Origin: Candidatus Aramenus sp. CH1
Lineage (GTDB): Archaea; Thermoproteota; Thermoprotei_A; Sulfolobales; Sulfolobaceae
Assembly (NCBI GenBank): GCA_022678445.1
Contig: JALBWU010000013.1
Location: forward strand, 1 to 51,535
Direction of reading: 5' to 3'
Length of the DNA: 51,535 nucleotides
The notes beneath the pieces were generated by a model. That model did no database searches. It was not told where the DNA came from and worked only from the letters and a program-made list of their open reading frames with translations. The position numbers were made by a program, and so were the translations under genes. Positions 4,596 through 10,988 of this stretch are shown one piece after another (positions within the stretch are counted from its first letter, which is position 1; the number at the start of each line of letters is the position of its first letter).

Positions 4596-5651
4596 TCACT
4601 GATCATTTGGTGATCTCCTCATCATCACGATATCTGAAGGGCTAAAATTCCTCTTTATTTTCGAGAACAAAAGCTTAGCGTAAGCGTCAGCCTCGATCTT
4701 CTTGATCTCGGAAAGGTCGTCAGCTATCTTGTTCAGAATTACTACCTCAGGGTAACCGCTGGCTCCCCACGTGGGCACGAACCTTAGGTTTCGCTTTCCC
4801 TCTTTCCCTAGGACGTCTATCCTGCTCACGGGAGATATCTGATCTTGCTGATAGTAGGCGGAGAGGATAGGGTAACCTAGTATCTCCTTGTACTTTAGGT
4901 AGGCCATTTTTGTCCCCTCCAGGTCCCCTGTCACTCCCCTTGACACAACCTCGTCCCAGTCTATCCATCCCAGCGCCACCGGCTCCTTAGGGTGAATCGA
5001 GTACTTTTTCCTTAAACTGTCAAAGAGCCTAGTTACCACGAACCTCTCGGTAGCGTCTTCAAGCCTTGGATAGCTCCCTACGAGGTTCACTAGGAACCTC
5101 TGGCTGAACCTCTTTACCACCCCTATGAACTTGTCGGGGTTCCTATCGAAGATGGAGCTCCTCTTGGATATAAGCTGGTCTAAGGCCTCCTTTCCAAAGA
5201 TCTGGTCGCTGTACACCGGTGGATCCACTAGAGGCCCATCGACGAAGAGGACGTCAGTGTCCTCTTCCTCCATTAGACCAGTCTCCACGCTCAACATCAG
5301 AGTGATAGCCATCTTCTTCACGGCGTCTAAGCCGTAGTAGTCTCCAACAACCCTGAAGTCGTCTACTACCTTAGGTGGTACTTCCCTCTTGTTGGCGAAA
5401 TGACCGTAGACCTTTACCGCCCTGACCATGATGAGGAACACGTCGCCAACGTACACTTGGTACATACTACCGTCAACTGCGGAGGCCGAGTGGGGCCTCT
5501 CCTCCTTCTCCACTTTGAAGAACTCAAGCTCCACGTTGCCGTAGTATACATCCTCTGCCAGCATCTCAACTGATGCGCTCAGCTTCCTAAGCTTCTCAGA
5601 CTCCTCCTTAGCTAGGGCCTCTATCCTTCCCAAGACGTCTTTTGTCCTCAA
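4596..5651 (-). CDS. NurA-like nuclease (paralogue in HerA/ATPase operon)
   Basis: A 351-residue protein with a long helical N-terminus followed by the NurA domain. Visible elements are AVDGS (Asp at about 60, the first metal ligand in NurA), SVETG (Glu about 123) and LFVDGPLVDPP (Asp about 138), and near the C-terminus ASGYPEVVILNK. NurA is the 5'-3' nuclease that works with the HerA translocase in end resection; its known active site adds a Tyr and a His near the C-terminus. Here the Tyr is plausible but the residue eight positions later is Lys, so the His seems absent. Start overlaps the coiled-coil gene by 4 bp (ATGA type). No mre11 or rad50 gene is in the window, so this appears to be a second, non-canonical NurA. 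Biochemical activity uncertain. Confidence 0.7.
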   Translation of the reverse strand: MRTKDVLGRIEALAKEESEKLRKLSASVEMLAEDVYYGNVELEFFKVEKEERPHSASAVDGSMYQVYVGDVFLIMVRAVKVYGHFANKREVPPKVVDDFRVVGDYYGLDAVKKMAITLMLSVETGLMEEEDTDVLFVDGPLVDPPVYSDQIFGKEALDQLISKRSSIFDRNPDKFIGVVKRFSQRFLVNLVGSYPRLEDATERFVVTRLFDSLRKKYSIHPKEPVALGWIDWDEVVSRGVTGDLEGTKMAYLKYKEILGYPILSAYYQQDQISPVSRIDVLGKEGKRNLRFVPTWGASGYPEVVILNKIADDLSEIKKIEADAYAKLLFSKIKRNFSPSDIVMMRRSPNDQ

Positions 5652-6319
5652 ACCCTCACCTTCACTGGCACTCCCATCTCTACTAGGAACTCTACTACCT
5701 TTATGAACCTCTCCTTGTTCCTCTTGGTTAAGGTTACCTCCCCTTTGTCTACCATGTCCACTAGAACGTCCACGTACTCAGGAGGTAAGTTAGAGGACTC
5801 TAGTTTCTCCTTCAGCCTCTTGTTGAGCTGTGTGACCATGTCCTCAGCCCTTTCCACCTCTTTCCTGGCCTCCTCGATATCGTCTTTGACCTCAAATGCT
5901 TCGACCTCCACTTCCTCCCTCAATACATTCCTGAATATCCTGGCGTATACCATTATTTTCCTGTTGAGCTCCTCCACCCTTTTCTTGTACTCCGCTAGGA
6001 CCCTTTCCTTCAGCTGGTTCAATGTGTCCACGCATTTCTGGCTCCTCTCAAATAGCTCTTCCACAAGCTCTCCTAAAGCCTCTGGGTCGTCTGGGACGTT
6101 AATTAGGGCCTCAATTATACCCACGCTTTCCCTGCTCACTTCCTCAAAGTTGTAACTCCTGCAAGCCTCCAAGTTAGCCTTTAGCCTCCCCACAAACTCT
6201 TCAGCCTTCCTCAACTTTGTCAGAACCTTGTCCAACCTCTCCTTCTCGTCCTGGAGGGCCCTGACGTCGGAGCTGTTCTTTACCCTTTCTAGCTCACTTA
6301 TTAGCTCCTGCAATCTCAT
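5648..6319 (-). CDS. Coiled-coil protein of the HerA-NurA-like operon
   Basis: A 223-residue protein that is almost entirely helical and highly charged. Heptad-like stretches cover about residues 1-50 (LERVKNSSDVRALQDEKERL), 90-135 and 145-175 (EEARKEVERAEDMVTQLNKR). A short globular C-terminus (FLVEMGVPVKVRV) ends the protein. No catalytic motif is visible. The gene overlaps the giant ATPase by 26 bp at its start and NurA by 4 bp at its end, so it is translated within the same unit. The most economical reading is a structural subunit pairing with the coiled-coil tail of the ATPase, in the way a Rad50 or SMC arm pairs, but this is inference. Confidence 0.6.
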   Translation of the reverse strand: MRLQELISELERVKNSSDVRALQDEKERLDKVLTKLRKAEEFVGRLKANLEACRSYNFEEVSRESVGIIEALINVPDDPEALGELVEELFERSQKCVDTLNQLKERVLAEYKKRVEELNRKIMVYARIFRNVLREEVEVEAFEVKDDIEEARKEVERAEDMVTQLNKRLKEKLESSNLPPEYVDVLVDMVDKGEVTLTKRNKERFIKVVEFLVEMGVPVKVRV

Positions 6320-9300
6320 CCAACTTCACCTTAAGCCTTGAGTATACCTCGCGTATCTCTTCTCTCTCCTTGTTAACGTTCTCCTTTAACTTCCTCAAGC
6401 TCGGATCCTGCCTATTTACCTCCTTGACCAATTCCTCTAGTCTCCTTAGCCCTTCCCCAAGACTTAAGGCCTTAACGTAGAGTTCGTACAAGGACGTCTC
6501 CTTAAGGGACTGTGAAAAGATAAGAGGGTAATTGTCTAGGCTCATCTTTGCTATTTCCCACACTATGAGGTACAAGTTGTTGCTCTCGTCCTGAAAGTTC
6601 TTCTGGACCATTTCTATCAAGTTCCTGATGGCGTCGAACTCCTTGTTGTTGGCCTTCTGTATGGCTGAGCTCAGTTCCTTTACGAGCGCATCGAGATTCT
6701 CGTCTAACCTCCTTAACAATTCTCTGAACTCCGCCTCTTCCTCTACCTCTCCCCTGACGCCCGCCAACCTCTTCGCCTCCTTAATGACCTCTAGCTTTTT
6801 CTCCACTTCCTCCTTTATCTTGGACACCTTGTTTCTTGCCCTCTCTGTCTCCTCTAGGAAGTCCTTGTACAAGGAGTAGAGGTTGAAGAAAGCAAAGTAA
6901 AGCCTAAAGTAGTTCCTTACGTCTCCTCCCTTAACGACGTTCTCCGCGTTTTCCTTGAACTTCAGCATGGACTCTTTCATTTCGCTCAAGCTCCTTATCC
7001 CTGCACCCCTAGCCTTTGCCGTTATGAAGTAACCATAGCTCACGTCGTAGTTCAACTTTTCCAATACCTCCTTTGCCTTCCCCTCAAGTAGTTCCCTGAG
7101 CTTCCCCGTGTCCAAGTGCCTAGCTATCTCCCCTGTGGCCAGGGACGCGTAGAGCAGGAACTCGACCGAGGAAGACCTCCTTGGGTCAAAGACCTTGCTT
7201 AAATTCAGCTGTCCCCTCTCCTTCAGCTTAGCGAGGGAGAGGATGTAGTCCACTACCACTTCCTCTACCTTTTCTCCGTACCTCTGCCTCAAGTACCCAG
7301 AGAGGGTCTTGGCGAACTCCTTTAGGTAGCTCCCAGCCAACTCCTCGTAGTTTATTACCCCGTTAGAGGAGTTGACAATCCCGTTCTCCGCCAAGTAGTC
7401 AACGATCTCCCTTAATGACTCCTCCGTCTCTATGTCCTCAAGCTTGAACTGCTTAGAGCCAAAGATCCTGAACTTCTCGTTGACTAGCTCGTTTACCTTG
7501 GAGAACGTTGAGGACACCTTCTCTGGATAGACCTCGTAGTTAAAGATAACCCAGTTCAAGGACTGGATAGGCCTCTTGTTGCCCTTAGCTACGGGCAGTA
7601 GCCTCACTTCCACCTTTTTCCTCACTTCTTCACTCAGCTCTTGAATCTGCCTCTTCACGTCCCCTAGCCTCAAGTCCACTCTGTCCTCCTTTAGTTCCGC
7701 TGAACCTCTGTTAAGGAAGTAGTAAAGTAAGTATAGCAACTGCCTCTTAACGGGGGTCGGCAAGTCCAGAACTGTCAAAGTGATCGAGAGCCTATCGCAT
7801 TTCTCAATTATTGCCTTAGAGACGTCCTTTGCGTTTATGTAGTCGCTTGAAACCAGTATAAGCCCGTCCAAGAAAACATCTTCCCTGTGATCAAGAAACG
7901 ACATGAGAGACTCGAAGTCTGACTGGTTTAGGACTTTAGCCAGGGCAACTGTGAACTTCCTCTCTTGGTTGCCCCACTTAAGCACCCTCAACCTGTCGCT
8001 GACCCTCGTCTCCTCGACGTCGCCGCTCAGTAACTTGACCAAGGAGATCACTCCGTCTAGCTCCTTTTCTACGCTCAATAAGTTCTCGTTGACGAACTTG
8101 ATCGCCCTCTCCTTGACCTCCCTGGACTTAAACTCCACGACGTAGTTGCCGACGTTTGTGTTTACAAGGCTCTCGAAGAAGTTCCAGCCGTAGGCAAATG
8201 CCTCTCCCCTCTTCCTGATCAAGAGCCTCTCCACCGCCTTCTTCATCTCCTCCCTTTTAACGCCCTCCTGTACTACCTTGTCCAGGTCCTCTGACACGAA
8301 GACCAATAGGCTTGAGTCGAAGTCCTTCCCAGGGTTATATAGGAGGAGGAAGTCGTCGAGGTTACTGTCCCCCATTACCTCCCTCCAAGAGTCGTAGCTC
8401 ACAGTGAAGCCCTTTATCACGTGTGGGGATAGCCTTCCCACCAAGAGGCTGCCGTCGAAGATCCTCGCCATCAAGCTCTTGTGGAACTTGGACACCTCCT
8501 CTGTGTCCAGCCCCTCTTCCACCTTCAAGAGGTTCTGAACCCTTATGGTCTCCTCTTCTTCGTTAAGCCACTTTGACTCAAGCACACCCTTAAAGATGAA
8601 CTCAGCTTGGTCCTCGAAGGCGTAGGAGTTACAGACCACATCGTTGAAGAACTTTGCGTACCTCCTCCTCTCGGGGGTTATGGTCCAGAAGGGCAAGTCC
8701 ATCCACTTCAAGACGTCGTTGTTGGCATTGTTGAAGTCCAGAAGGCAACTCATCATTGCCAAGAACTCCAGCTTAGTCGGTGTACCTATAACCACCCGCT
8801 TCACCCTTTGGAGGAGGGAGTAGTACGTCTCTGGGAACATTGATGGTAGAACGCTGGAGAAGAGCTTTGAGTAGGCGCTGGGGGTCATGGACAAGTAGAC
8901 CACCTTGTTCCCCTTGGAGTTGGCCAGCCCCTTGACGAAAAGCCAGAAGTCCTTAATCTGATCGGAGTACTTTGTGGTGGCAAAGTCTATAGCAGTCTCT
9001 ACCTCGTCTATTAGCACTACATCGTTGAGCTTAACCTCCTCGAGACTCTTCAAGTTGTTCAAGACGTCCACGAAGTTGAGCTTAGCAAACCTCTTTCCCG
9101 CCTCATTTAGGGCCTCGCTTACTATGCTCAGGAAGGTCGTCTTACCCTGCCCCCAGTCCGCGACCAGAGCTATAATTTCGGGACTCTCCCTCGGCGATTT
9201 AACCCTCGCTATCTCCTCACCTATCTGCCTAAAGAACCTGAGCCTATCAATGTGCTTGGTCTTGGAGACCACGCACTTGTAGAGCTTGAATATGCTTTCG

Positions 9301-9347
9301 GGGTCAGCTGAAGTCTCACTAAGCCTAAACTGGCACATTTTACTCAT
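6294..9347 (-). CDS. Giant P-loop ATPase with coiled-coil tail, unknown function
   Basis: A 1017-residue protein. The N-terminal ATPase has a Walker A loop ADWGQGKTT (about residues 63-71), a Walker B DVVLIDEVE (about 109-117) and a sensor-like strand VVYLSMTPSAYSK (about 150-163), as in STAND/Cdc6-like or ORC-like AAA ATPases that grip DNA or partner proteins. A long central region follows without recognised domains. The last ~190 residues are rich in coiled-coil (for example ERARNKVSKIKEEVEKKLE and LKENVNKEREEIREV). The start ATG lies in a TAATG overlap with the HerA-like stop, so expression is coupled. The architecture recalls large ATPases of BREX-type systems only in outline; no homology is claimed. 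It might load or regulate the HerA/NurA pair. Confidence 0.7.
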   Translation of the reverse strand: MSKMCQFRLSETSADPESIFKLYKCVVSKTKHIDRLRFFRQIGEEIARVKSPRESPEIIALVADWGQGKTTFLSIVSEALNEAGKRFAKLNFVDVLNNLKSLEEVKLNDVVLIDEVETAIDFATTKYSDQIKDFWLFVKGLANSKGNKVVYLSMTPSAYSKLFSSVLPSMFPETYYSLLQRVKRVVIGTPTKLEFLAMMSCLLDFNNANNDVLKWMDLPFWTITPERRRYAKFFNDVVCNSYAFEDQAEFIFKGVLESKWLNEEEETIRVQNLLKVEEGLDTEEVSKFHKSLMARIFDGSLLVGRLSPHVIKGFTVSYDSWREVMGDSNLDDFLLLYNPGKDFDSSLLVFVSEDLDKVVQEGVKREEMKKAVERLLIRKRGEAFAYGWNFFESLVNTNVGNYVVEFKSREVKERAIKFVNENLLSVEKELDGVISLVKLLSGDVEETRVSDRLRVLKWGNQERKFTVALAKVLNQSDFESLMSFLDHREDVFLDGLILVSSDYINAKDVSKAIIEKCDRLSITLTVLDLPTPVKRQLLYLLYYFLNRGSAELKEDRVDLRLGDVKRQIQELSEEVRKKVEVRLLPVAKGNKRPIQSLNWVIFNYEVYPEKVSSTFSKVNELVNEKFRIFGSKQFKLEDIETEESLREIVDYLAENGIVNSSNGVINYEELAGSYLKEFAKTLSGYLRQRYGEKVEEVVVDYILSLAKLKERGQLNLSKVFDPRRSSSVEFLLYASLATGEIARHLDTGKLRELLEGKAKEVLEKLNYDVSYGYFITAKARGAGIRSLSEMKESMLKFKENAENVVKGGDVRNYFRLYFAFFNLYSLYKDFLEETERARNKVSKIKEEVEKKLEVIKEAKRLAGVRGEVEEEAEFRELLRRLDENLDALVKELSSAIQKANNKEFDAIRNLIEMVQKNFQDESNNLYLIVWEIAKMSLDNYPLIFSQSLKETSLYELYVKALSLGEGLRRLEELVKEVNRQDPSLRKLKENVNKEREEIREVYSRLKVKLDEIAGANK

Positions 9348-10954
9348 TAGTCTTCTAGTAGTACTCTATCAACTCTTTCCAAGGAACCAGCGTATGACCC
9401 CAACTTAGGATCCCAAGGTATTCTCACCAGTGCGGGTACCTTCAACGCCGACATGAGGCCGTTGACGATCACGTACCCTGTATCCTGGGAGGGTATAGCC
9501 TTGGCCAAGGATTCAGGCAGACCACCGCTGGCAGACATCACGTAGCGTAGATCCTCGTGGTATATCCTGTGGAAGAAGAAGGTGTTCAGCATGGAGAGCA
9601 CGTACTTGTCCACGAAGGCCGGCCTCTGACTGACGAGGAAGAGGGAAAGGCCGAACTTCCTTCCCTGCGTCGCTAAGGTGACTAGGATGTCCTTTGTAAT
9701 GCTAGCGTTCACGGGGTAATCATTTGAGGGTATATAATTCTGTGCCTCCTCTATAACGAAGCCTATGAGCTTCTGGTTCCCTGAGTACTTTGCCTTGGTC
9801 AAGTAGTTCAAGAGGGACCTCGCGATATAGCTCACAATTAGTTGCTTCGTAGCTATGTCAACTCCTGGGGACCCATCTGCCGAGAAGTCTACGATGAGTA
9901 GGCCCTTGTTTTTCCAGAGCAACTCGAGTGTGGACTCGTTGAAGCTGGAAGAGTTATCTATTAACTTATACTTCTGCACTAGCCTGTTCTTGAATATCTC
10001 GAGGGCGCTAATCACTGCCCTAACAGTGCTGTAGTTGAACCCCGAGTCCTTCAGCGATGGGTCTGACAGCTCCTTTTCGAGCATTTCAACGCCCTGCTCA
10101 GTCCCCAAGATGAGGTTGTATTCCTTTACATCATGCCTTGAGAGGACGAATTCCAAGAGGTTGCTCTGGAGCGAGTTTGTGGTTTCTCCGCTGAACTTGA
10201 GGGAAATTATGAAGTCGGCTAAGTCCTTAGGCGTGAAAAGGGACAGGTCTATGGTAAGCCTTGCCTCGTTCCTCGTCAAGGGGTCTCTGATCACGAACTT
10301 CCTAACGAAGTTCCTTCCTCCCCTGACCAGAGAGTAGTTCTGGTCTGCAAAGTCGGCGTAGTCCCCGTTGGCGTCTATGACTATCAAGGGTATAGCAGTC
10401 TTCTTTCCCCTTATCTCCAAGTTCGAGAGGGTCGAAATTAAGTACCTCATGTTATAGCTCTTCCCGCTCCCGGTCTCGCCAAAGATGCCTACGTGCATGG
10501 TTATTGAATTGAGGTCCAGTAACAAGGGAATGTCGGAACCTGCAAGGAGCCCGTACTTTACGTGTCCCGTCAAGTCGTTTACGCCGTAAAACTCCATTAG
10601 CCCCTTCTCGTCTCTTATCTCCGGGAGGAGCTTAACTAACGAGCCTGGCATCGGTGAAGAGGAGTGATTGTACCTCTTGATTATGCTGAGCGAGGCCTTT
10701 ATAACGGTGTTCATGTTCAGCAGTTCAAAAGACTCCTCCTCCGTTATCATCGACCTAAGTATGGGTATTTTCTCGTCGTAAAACTCGTTTATGTACTCGA
10801 AGCTGTCGAGCCTACAGAGCGAGACCTTTCCTCCGTCCTTCACCACAAAGAGCCTACCGCTGGACACCTCCACCGAGGGGTCTATGATGGCGCTGACGGA
10901 GTTGGACTCCCCCTTCTGTAGGACGATGCCTACTGTTTTCCCTCCTTCTAGCAT
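9347..10954 (-). CDS. HerA-like hexameric DNA translocase
   Basis: About 535 residues. The N-terminal ~90 residues are beta-rich and fit a HAS-barrel. The RecA/FtsK-like core has Walker A GIFGETGSGKS, followed by LIVIDANGDYADF, a Walker B strand GLLIVDFSADG and the second acidic strand GFVIEEAQNY with paired Glu, then LFLVSQRPAF and MLNTFFFHRIYHEDLRYV, the typical HerA/VirB4 sensor and arginine-finger region. HerA pumps DNA into NurA. I prefer the ATG at 10954 over the TTG at 10972, because a TATA-like CTTTTTAAGT (10978-10988) sits about 28 bp upstream and implies a leaderless start. First gene of the four-gene operon. It has no mre11/rad50 next to it, so it is a paralogue rather than the usual operon. 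Confidence 0.8.
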   Translation of the reverse strand: MLEGGKTVGIVLQKGESNSVSAIIDPSVEVSSGRLFVVKDGGKVSLCRLDSFEYINEFYDEKIPILRSMITEEESFELLNMNTVIKASLSIIKRYNHSSSPMPGSLVKLLPEIRDEKGLMEFYGVNDLTGHVKYGLLAGSDIPLLLDLNSITMHVGIFGETGSGKSYNMRYLISTLSNLEIRGKKTAIPLIVIDANGDYADFADQNYSLVRGGRNFVRKFVIRDPLTRNEARLTIDLSLFTPKDLADFIISLKFSGETTNSLQSNLLEFVLSRHDVKEYNLILGTEQGVEMLEKELSDPSLKDSGFNYSTVRAVISALEIFKNRLVQKYKLIDNSSSFNESTLELLWKNKGLLIVDFSADGSPGVDIATKQLIVSYIARSLLNYLTKAKYSGNQKLIGFVIEEAQNYIPSNDYPVNASITKDILVTLATQGRKFGLSLFLVSQRPAFVDKYVLSMLNTFFFHRIYHEDLRYVMSASGGLPESLAKAIPSQDTGYVIVNGLMSALKVPALVRIPWDPKLGSYAGSLERVDRVLLED

Positions 10955-10977
10955 GTATCCTCTCTTTCGCAAATTGA

Positions 10978-10988
10978 CTTAAAAAGGA
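10978..10988 (-). promoter_or_regulatory. TATA-like element upstream of the HerA-like operon
   Basis: Read on the minus strand it is CTTTTTAAGTC, centred about 26-28 bp before the ATG at 10954, the normal distance for a leaderless archaeal transcript. It would drive the HerA-ATPase-coiled coil-NurA unit. Confidence 0.4.

Follow-up and report, generated by a model that had tools for sequence, protein, structure and literature searches.

HerA and NurA acting with Mre11 and Rad50 constitute the textbook end-resection set of archaea. The four corresponding genes, herA, nurA, mre11 and rad50, are all essential in S. islandicus (PMC4351679). In Thermoproteales, paralogous nurA-herA pairs include a CRISPR-linked nurA-csm6-herA cluster, and an orphan HerA has also been reported (PMC3396285). 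Defence systems are described as repeatedly combining a HerA/FtsK protein and a nuclease with an ORC/Cdc6-type AAA+ ATPase, an inactive restriction endonuclease (REase)-like domain and a winged helix (PMC10853773, PMC12839542).

The window analysed here, the whole 51,535-nucleotide stretch of Candidatus Aramenus sp. CH1 DNA, harbors on its minus strand, between positions 4596 and 10954, four overlapping genes. In order, they code for a translocase of the HerA type, an ATPase of 1017 residues, a coiled-coil protein and a protein with a NurA domain. The original prediction placed the two middle genes in place of Mre11-Rad50. This replacement is unsupported because the same genome also possesses a canonical herA-mre11-rad50-nurA operon (L085), together with further herA and nurA copies. 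No published description of the four-gene operon was found among the open-access papers searched; the FtsK-HerA survey of Iyer et al. (2004) may mention it.

Gene organisation and encoded proteins

All features given below lie on the minus strand. The herA-like gene (9347-10954) most likely starts at the ATG at 10954, because orthologues begin at this codon and a TATA-like element, CTTTTTAAG (10978-10986), was read 28 bp before it. This element is a putative promoter. A longer herA reading frame, starting with the TTG at 10972, is possible. The herA/ATPase, ATPase/coiled-coil and coiled-coil/nurA junctions, read directly from the sequence, are overlaps of 1 bp (TAATG), 26 bp and 4 bp, and the four coupled reading frames are all present as first described. 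The overlaps were expected to fix both order and stoichiometry: the order is retained in 15/15 loci, whereas the overlaps show co-expression only and say nothing of stoichiometry.

The HerA-like product contains a central DUF87 domain (Pfam, 2.4e-35, over cut-off), in which the Walker A (GETGSGKS) and Walker B (IEEA) motifs are invariant in 15/15 orthologues, in agreement with its proposed identity. The N-terminal HAS-barrel (PF09378) was matched below cut-off (E = 0.015). The best-scoring models were HerA repair models. The protein was nevertheless rejected as an orthologue of the canonical repair HerA, since it scored 68-88 bits against NCBIfam HerA equivalog cut-offs of 800-970 and shares only 22% identity with its canonical counterpart in this genome. 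The nurA-like gene (4596-5651, TTG start) encodes a NurA domain over the curated Pfam cut-off (56.5 bits versus 21; 3.7e-15). Its residues D60, E123 and D138 are invariant and align with the D58/DGG, E and DGS motifs of canonical NurA, in which the role of D58 has been described (PMC4641729). Judging from this alignment, the operon NurA keeps its catalytic residues, which also bears out the identity first given to it. Searches of PDB sequences with the ATPase and NurA profiles gave nothing useful.

The giant ATPase gene (6294-9347) is conserved in 18 Sulfolobaceae genomes. Its product carries one Walker A motif, ADWGQGKTT (residues 63-71; 9135-9161), followed about 45 residues later by the Walker B motif VVLIDEVE (residues 110-117; 8997-9020); D64, W65, G66, G68 and K69 in the former and D114, E115, V116 and E117 in the latter are invariant in 18/18 sequences. 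The surrounding domain (about residues 30-241; 8625-9260) was modelled with AlphaFold2 and submitted to Foldseek. The top PDB match was a chain of the human ORC-CDC6-MCM complex (OCCM; E = 1.2e-4), followed by other AAA+ proteins, but the TM-scores were low. According to the predicted fold, the ATPase is an AAA+ protein, probably of the ORC/Cdc6 type, and is not Rad50/SMC-like. The "arm-type" complex initially proposed by analogy with Rad50/SMC is unsupported, because the protein has neither ABC signature nor CxxC hook, adopts a predicted AAA+ fold and has a short coiled coil. A Rad50, SMC or coalescin identity was discarded on the same missing ABC motifs and AAA+ fold.

An alpha/beta domain (residues about 443-545; 7713-8021) was delineated from the order of strands and helices in the models. 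It is weakly restriction-endonuclease-like: the top Foldseek matches were REase-fold proteins, but with E values of 0.01-0.2, and among the 18 genomes residues 428-532 contain no invariant residue, leaving the domain without a conserved active site. A winged-helix-like region (residues about 593-671; 7335-7571), assigned by inspection of the model secondary structure, displays the motif FRxxxxKxFxxxDxET, in which F626, R627, K632, F634, D638, E640 and T641 are invariant in the 18 genomes. This order is compatible with an inactive REase domain preceding a winged helix, the REase match being weak. The C-terminal helical tail (residues about 787-1015; 6303-6989) is heptad-rich, so that the coiled-coil tail announced for this protein is real, yet short, its longest predicted helix covering 53 residues.

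For the window protein, no match to a named family reached a curated cut-off, as anticipated, and a known family with an unrelated function was not encountered. Family members gave weak Pfam matches to nSTAND5, BrxC_BrxD and AAA_22, and one divergent member passed the BrxC_BrxD (PF10923) cut-off (4e-8 over 35 residues). Membership of BrxC was rejected by profile comparison: when BrxC and BrxC-like proteins from plasmids, 10 in all, were made into a profile, the match was limited to the surroundings of Walker A (hhalign E = 0.025 over the full length, 0.0025 with the AAA+ domain only, none in the C-terminus).

The gene between the ATPase and nurA (5648-6319) codes for a 223-residue protein of strong heptad periodicity (0/300 shuffles were as strong). 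It occupies the same slot in all orthologous loci, with 17-28% identity outside the genus and no recognisable sequence similarity for the g9 copy. No Pfam family exceeded its cut-off, and Mre11, with its metallophosphoesterase domain, was rejected as a candidate.

Distribution and evolution of the cassette

The herA-ATPase-coiled-coil-nurA order is identical, with near-zero spacers, in 15/15 ATPase-bearing Sulfolobaceae loci from five genera, and therefore the operon is not due to chance. The fixed four-gene unit that had been predicted is thus conserved, and its genes were not found scattered in relatives. Its flanking genes differ between four genomic settings (Aramenus; g4; g3 and g5; g9). 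At the genus level the ATPase is all-or-none: it is present in 7/7, 4/4, 3/3, 2/2 and 2/2 sampled genomes and missing from six genera (0/6, 0/2, 0/2, 0/1, 0/1 and 0/1). Beyond the sampled Sulfolobaceae genera, close to 200 other genomes of this class also lacked it, and a search of genome contigs retrieved no records other than those of Ca. Aramenus sulfurataquae and of Sulfolobus sp. UBA167. Matches outside Sulfolobaceae (e.g. G031/L032, G042, G061) were short and confined to the P-loop, and were discarded; L032 is an unrelated protein of secreted type. When the cassette was sought via HerA in the other families of the order, the nearest relatives were plain herA-nurA pairs only, and the two middle genes are therefore an addition. 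No relative was found in viral contigs, and a viral origin was rejected on this search.

The cassette and the canonical set were compared in the same genomes (G004, G014 and G003). Identities were, respectively, 60-66% and 60-63% for HerA, 37-44% for the cassette ATPase and 33-38% for Rad50, and 34-42% and 38-41% for NurA. Within-genus dN/dS values were 0.07 (herA), 0.16 (ATPase), 0.29 (coiled coil) and 0.11 (nurA) in the cassette, versus 0.075 (herA), 0.18 (rad50) and 0.09 (nurA) in the canonical set. These matching rates favour a function in genome maintenance. In the AU test the cassette tree rejected the canonical topology and vice versa, mainly because the g9 copy is very divergent; the cassette may therefore have been transferred horizontally.

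Possible functions of the operon

What is observed is the order of the genes, the identity of their domains, the preserved catalytic motifs and the evolutionary pattern. The reading that we tentatively prefer, and which comes close to an even chance, is a dedicated AAA+ loader or adaptor for a HerA-NurA DNA pump-nuclease, with maintenance likelier than defence. The four products would form one DNA-processing machine running beside the Mre11-Rad50 set. As in the known HerA-NurA complex, the hexameric dsDNA translocase HerA would pump DNA and the nuclease NurA would cut it, together providing the core; the giant ATPase would be an ATP-switched, DNA-binding subunit placing this core on particular DNA, and the coiled-coil protein may connect the ATPase to it. 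The complex, the loader role and the maintenance function are all inferred. Against this reading, the fold matches of the middle domain have E values above 0.01, the g9 coiled-coil protein is unrecognisable by sequence, the cassette and canonical trees conflict, and six genera live without the cassette. Canonical HerA, moreover, reportedly works together with NurA, Hjc and a PIN ATPase and needs no such loader (PMC4351679). Each of these genomes has between four and six nurA genes, mostly seen beside a herA, and the operon is a concrete candidate for the means by which the extra copies are directed to particular DNA.

The strongest rival, which we consider less likely, is a defence against invaders along the lines of HerA/FtsK capture, in which NurA would degrade foreign or replicating DNA that the AAA+ protein has recognised and HerA pumps. 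The AAA+, REase-like and winged-helix order of the ATPase, the member passing the BrxC_BrxD cut-off, and a cassette at different loci, lacking in six genera and with a tree in conflict with the canonical one, are compatible with it. BrxC affinity is, however, unsupported by profile comparison, the cassette is single-copy and all-or-none by genus, its rates equal those of essential repair genes and viral contigs gave no match. The flanking genes scanned include no integrase, CRISPR or defence genes, and PADLOC returned only generic HerA and coiled-coil matches, by which a known defence system was rejected.

It is improbable that the four genes are merely co-transcribed, with a functionally separate ATPase/coiled-coil pair sharing the operon of a HerA-NurA pair by accident: plain herA-nurA pairs elsewhere in the order would fit, but in every genome, across four settings, the two genes lie overlapping between herA and nurA, and the related Thermoproteales ATPase accompanies NurA without HerA. 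Equally doubtful is a DNA-transfer or chromosome-segregation pump, comparable in role to Ced/VirB4 ATPases, with HerA driving DNA across a membrane or septum and the other three proteins processing or tethering it; HerA/FtsK proteins often move DNA across membranes and NCBIfam CedD was among the HerA-domain matches (1.4e-16, far below its cut-off), but HerA repair models score best, a NurA partner is typical of end processing and no Ced component was present in the flanks that were examined.

Comparison with known systems

Like the canonical archaeal operon, the cassette has herA first, nurA last and two genes between, HerA and NurA superfamily members with catalytic residues, and similar divergence rates; its middle genes encode an AAA+ ATPase and a coiled coil instead of a metallophosphoesterase and an ABC ATPase. 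An ATPase plus a coiled coil recalls Rad50, SMC and coalescin (ClsN), but the operon ATPase is not ABC-type and lacks signature motif and hook; HerA and NurA are both absent from the text of the coalescin paper (PMC9389158). With the BrxC/DUF499/DUF6079 ATPases of BREX and BREX-related capture systems it shares, in order, an AAA+ domain probably of the ORC/Cdc6 type, an alpha/beta domain, a winged-helix-like region and a coiled-coil tail (PMC12839542), but no profile similarity beyond Walker A, and Pfam/NCBIfam scans of the operon genes and selected flanks detected no PglZ, BrxB or PglX/methylase. The HerA/FtsK capture systems (PMC10853773), compared by published description, also combine HerA/FtsK, an ORC-like AAA+ protein and a nuclease, with an REase-like insert that the operon ATPase may share; they are described as mobile with an REase effector, whereas the cassette has NurA as effector and no mobility genes among the flanking genes scanned.

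Thermoproteales nurA-herA pairs resemble the cassette in occurring several per genome, with their own neighbours and stable within genera, but the passages of PMC3396285 on them describe no giant ATPase or coiled-coil gene. The closest ATPase domain is that of a giant AAA+ protein encoded upstream of a NurA gene in 25/28 Thermoproteales genomes (hhalign E = 1.4e-8, versus 0.0009-0.025 for other AAA+ proteins). This module has no adjacent herA, the C-terminal regions of the two ATPases are not alignable, its small middle protein is not a coiled coil of the cassette type and its NurA aligns only weakly with that of the cassette; both share an ORC-like AAA+ domain coupled to NurA. This linkage suggests a theme wider than one family. 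It is conceivable, with rather less confidence than we attach to the loader, that an old class of Thermoproteota machines exists in which a giant ORC/Cdc6-type AAA+ protein, and not Mre11-Rad50, controls NurA, together with a HerA motor of its own and a coiled-coil adaptor in Sulfolobaceae and with no linked HerA in Thermoproteales. If true, this would be a second, parallel pathway of DNA-end or DNA-entry processing using the logic of replication loaders.

Organization and distribution of the cassette

The operon lies on the minus strand, where herA (start ATG at 10954) is followed by the ATPase gene (9347-6294), the coiled-coil protein gene (6319-5648) and nurA (5651-4596), with successive overlaps of 1 (TAATG), 26 and 4 bp, as the original prediction had read them. 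A TATA-like box is located 28 bp upstream of the herA ATG. The flanking genes, an RsmB/F-type methyltransferase (Pfam) and, by inspection, a glycosyltransferase and an inorganic pyrophosphatase, look unrelated to the cassette.

The ATPase has a 93% match in the Candidatus Aramenus sulfurataquae AZ1 record, and likewise in the genus-mate genome G001. In a profile search of 229 genomes of the class, 18 were positive, all from Sulfolobaceae, besides two short P-loop-only matches; the viral collection yielded no relative of the ATPase. Among the Sulfolobaceae genera (g1 to g11, g1 being Aramenus), presence is all-or-none: the ATPase was found in g1 (2/2), g3 (3/3), g4 (4/4), g5 (7/7) and g9 (2/2), and the search was negative for g10 (0/6), g7 and g8 (0/2 each) and g2, g6 and g11 (0/1 each, the g2 genome being only 79% complete). 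The predicted gene order was recovered in all 15 Sulfolobaceae loci inspected, the intergenic distances ranging from -26 to +6 bp. Since the genomic setting differs among g1, g4, g3 with g5, and g9, the cassette has been kept together while its surroundings changed. In other families of the order, the nearest relatives of the cassette HerA mostly belong to simple herA-nurA pairs, which suggests that the two middle genes were added to such a pair.

Three side observations were made. Genome G024 carries, apart from its intact cassette, a lone 59-residue fragment with 51% identity to ATPase residues 118-176 (G024:C2:1956067-1956252; loci L017 and L084, inside L033), an apparent remnant of a second ATPase copy. 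Thermopsin-family protease genes (L023:3704-5035, L030:12054-13910) occur near the cassette in g9, where one borders herA, and in g5, at a distance of one gene; g3 also has a gene of this family, the g9 and g5 settings are otherwise different, and the proximity may be a coincidence. An order-level relative has, at L154:6262-12406, a HerA gene with genes for 1174- and 301-residue proteins downstream; these proteins are unrelated to the cassette by profile, and the genes make up another herA-linked operon.

Domains of the four proteins

The HerA-like and NurA-like identities proposed from the sequence were borne out. HerA matches DUF87 (2.4e-35), yet falls far under the canonical HerA equivalog cut-offs (Pfam, NCBIfam). 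NurA exceeds its Pfam cut-off and its catalytic motifs are intact: D60, E123 and D138 do not vary and align with the motifs of canonical NurA; exonuclease activity of S. solfataricus NurA needs D58 (PMC4641729). The coiled-coil protein displays strong heptad periodicity and was assigned to no family.

The window ATPase gave only sub-threshold Pfam matches (nSTAND5, KAP), and a single divergent orthologue passed the BrxC_BrxD cut-off, over 35 residues. In an AlphaFold2 model built on 18 orthologues (mean pLDDT 83, pTM 0.59), the best PDB match of the predicted N-terminal AAA+ domain is a human OCCM chain (E 1.2e-4), with many other AAA+ proteins next. This domain would be followed by a helical segment, an alpha/beta domain (strand order bbb-a-b-a-b), a winged-helix-like region whose C-terminal motif is strongly conserved, and a tail of helices and coiled coil. 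The best matches of the middle part searched alone include the restriction-endonuclease-fold proteins MspJI, EcoT38I and Cap4, as well as RPB5, which has an endonuclease-like jaw domain. As their E values are 0.01 to 0.2 and unrelated folds are intermixed, the possible likeness to restriction endonucleases is a lead only; no residue is invariant between positions 428 and 532, and any endonuclease domain would therefore be inactive. Inspection of the sequence revealed neither ABC signature nor zinc hook which, with the AAA+ fold, rules out a Rad50/SMC analogue in mechanism; of the arm-type ATPase originally proposed there remains a coiled coil, present but short.

Other nurA loci and a Thermoproteales module

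The cassette had been proposed to stand in place of Mre11-Rad50. It is not a replacement: the same genome holds a canonical herA-mre11-rad50-nurA set on a separate contig (L085). Its three further nurA loci, on top of L085 and the cassette, are nurA-herA pairs on other contigs (L086, L088) and a nurA whose neighbouring herA is split across three ORFs (L087:6103-7896), through gene decay or a faulty assembly. Each cassette-bearing Sulfolobaceae genome yields roughly five or six matches to the NurA domain, some being two pieces of one gene. The presence of several nurA-herA pairs had previously been described for Pyrobaculum (PMC3396285).

A phylum search for BrxC-like ATPases uncovered a module of three genes in genomes assigned by inference to Thermoproteales. 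It encodes a giant ORC-like AAA+ protein of 950-1150 residues, a 170-229-residue protein assigned to no family and a protein whose NurA domain scores 24-36 bits in Pfam (cut-off 21), at loci L187:7576-11679, L188, L185, L186, L191:6990-12008 and L192. Of 300 genomes, 28 carry the ATPase, and in 25 of these a co-oriented NurA-like ORF lies no more than 1.5 kb downstream; herA is not adjacent at the module loci. With hhalign, the module AAA+ domain aligned with the Sulfolobaceae ATPase at E 1.4e-8 (probability 95%), and the full-length protein at 5.4e-6; other AAA+ controls, most compared at full length, were weaker (0.0009 to 0.025), BrxC cut to its AAA+ domain giving 0.0025. Outside the AAA+ domain no alignment was obtained. 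The pairing of a related AAA+ protein with NurA where herA is not adjacent supports a putative functional ATPase-NurA link independent of HerA.

Maintenance or defence

Between the same genomes (G004, G014, G003), HerA identity is about 60-66% in cassette and canonical set alike, the cassette ATPase reaches 37-44% against 33-38% for canonical Rad50, and the cassette NurA 34-42% against 38-41%. Low within-genus dN/dS reveals selection on cassette herA, ATPase and nurA. With genus-level constancy, these values make the cassette look like a vertically kept cellular machine, and they speak against the main rival, the same machine serving defence. That rival, which we consider less likely, draws on an already described defence theme combining HerA with ORC-type AAA+ proteins and nucleases (PMC10853773, PMC12839542). 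Vertical keeping is also opposed by the cassette and canonical-set trees, which reject each other's topology mainly through g9. In that genus the cassette (L030, L031) has diverged much further (ATPase 22% identity) than the canonical repair genes with which it shares a genome, and it may have been acquired horizontally or stem from an ancient duplication.

We tentatively favour a maintenance role, at somewhat under even chances, for a HerA-NurA pump equipped with an AAA+ loader or recruiter and a coiled-coil link. Pumping of dsDNA into NurA by a HerA hexamer is established for the canonical pair, and the cassette HerA would act likewise. On the model of ORC/Cdc6, and of the role suggested for BrxC, the AAA+ protein may bind DNA under ATP control and load or recruit HerA-NurA, the coiled-coil protein presumably serving as the link.
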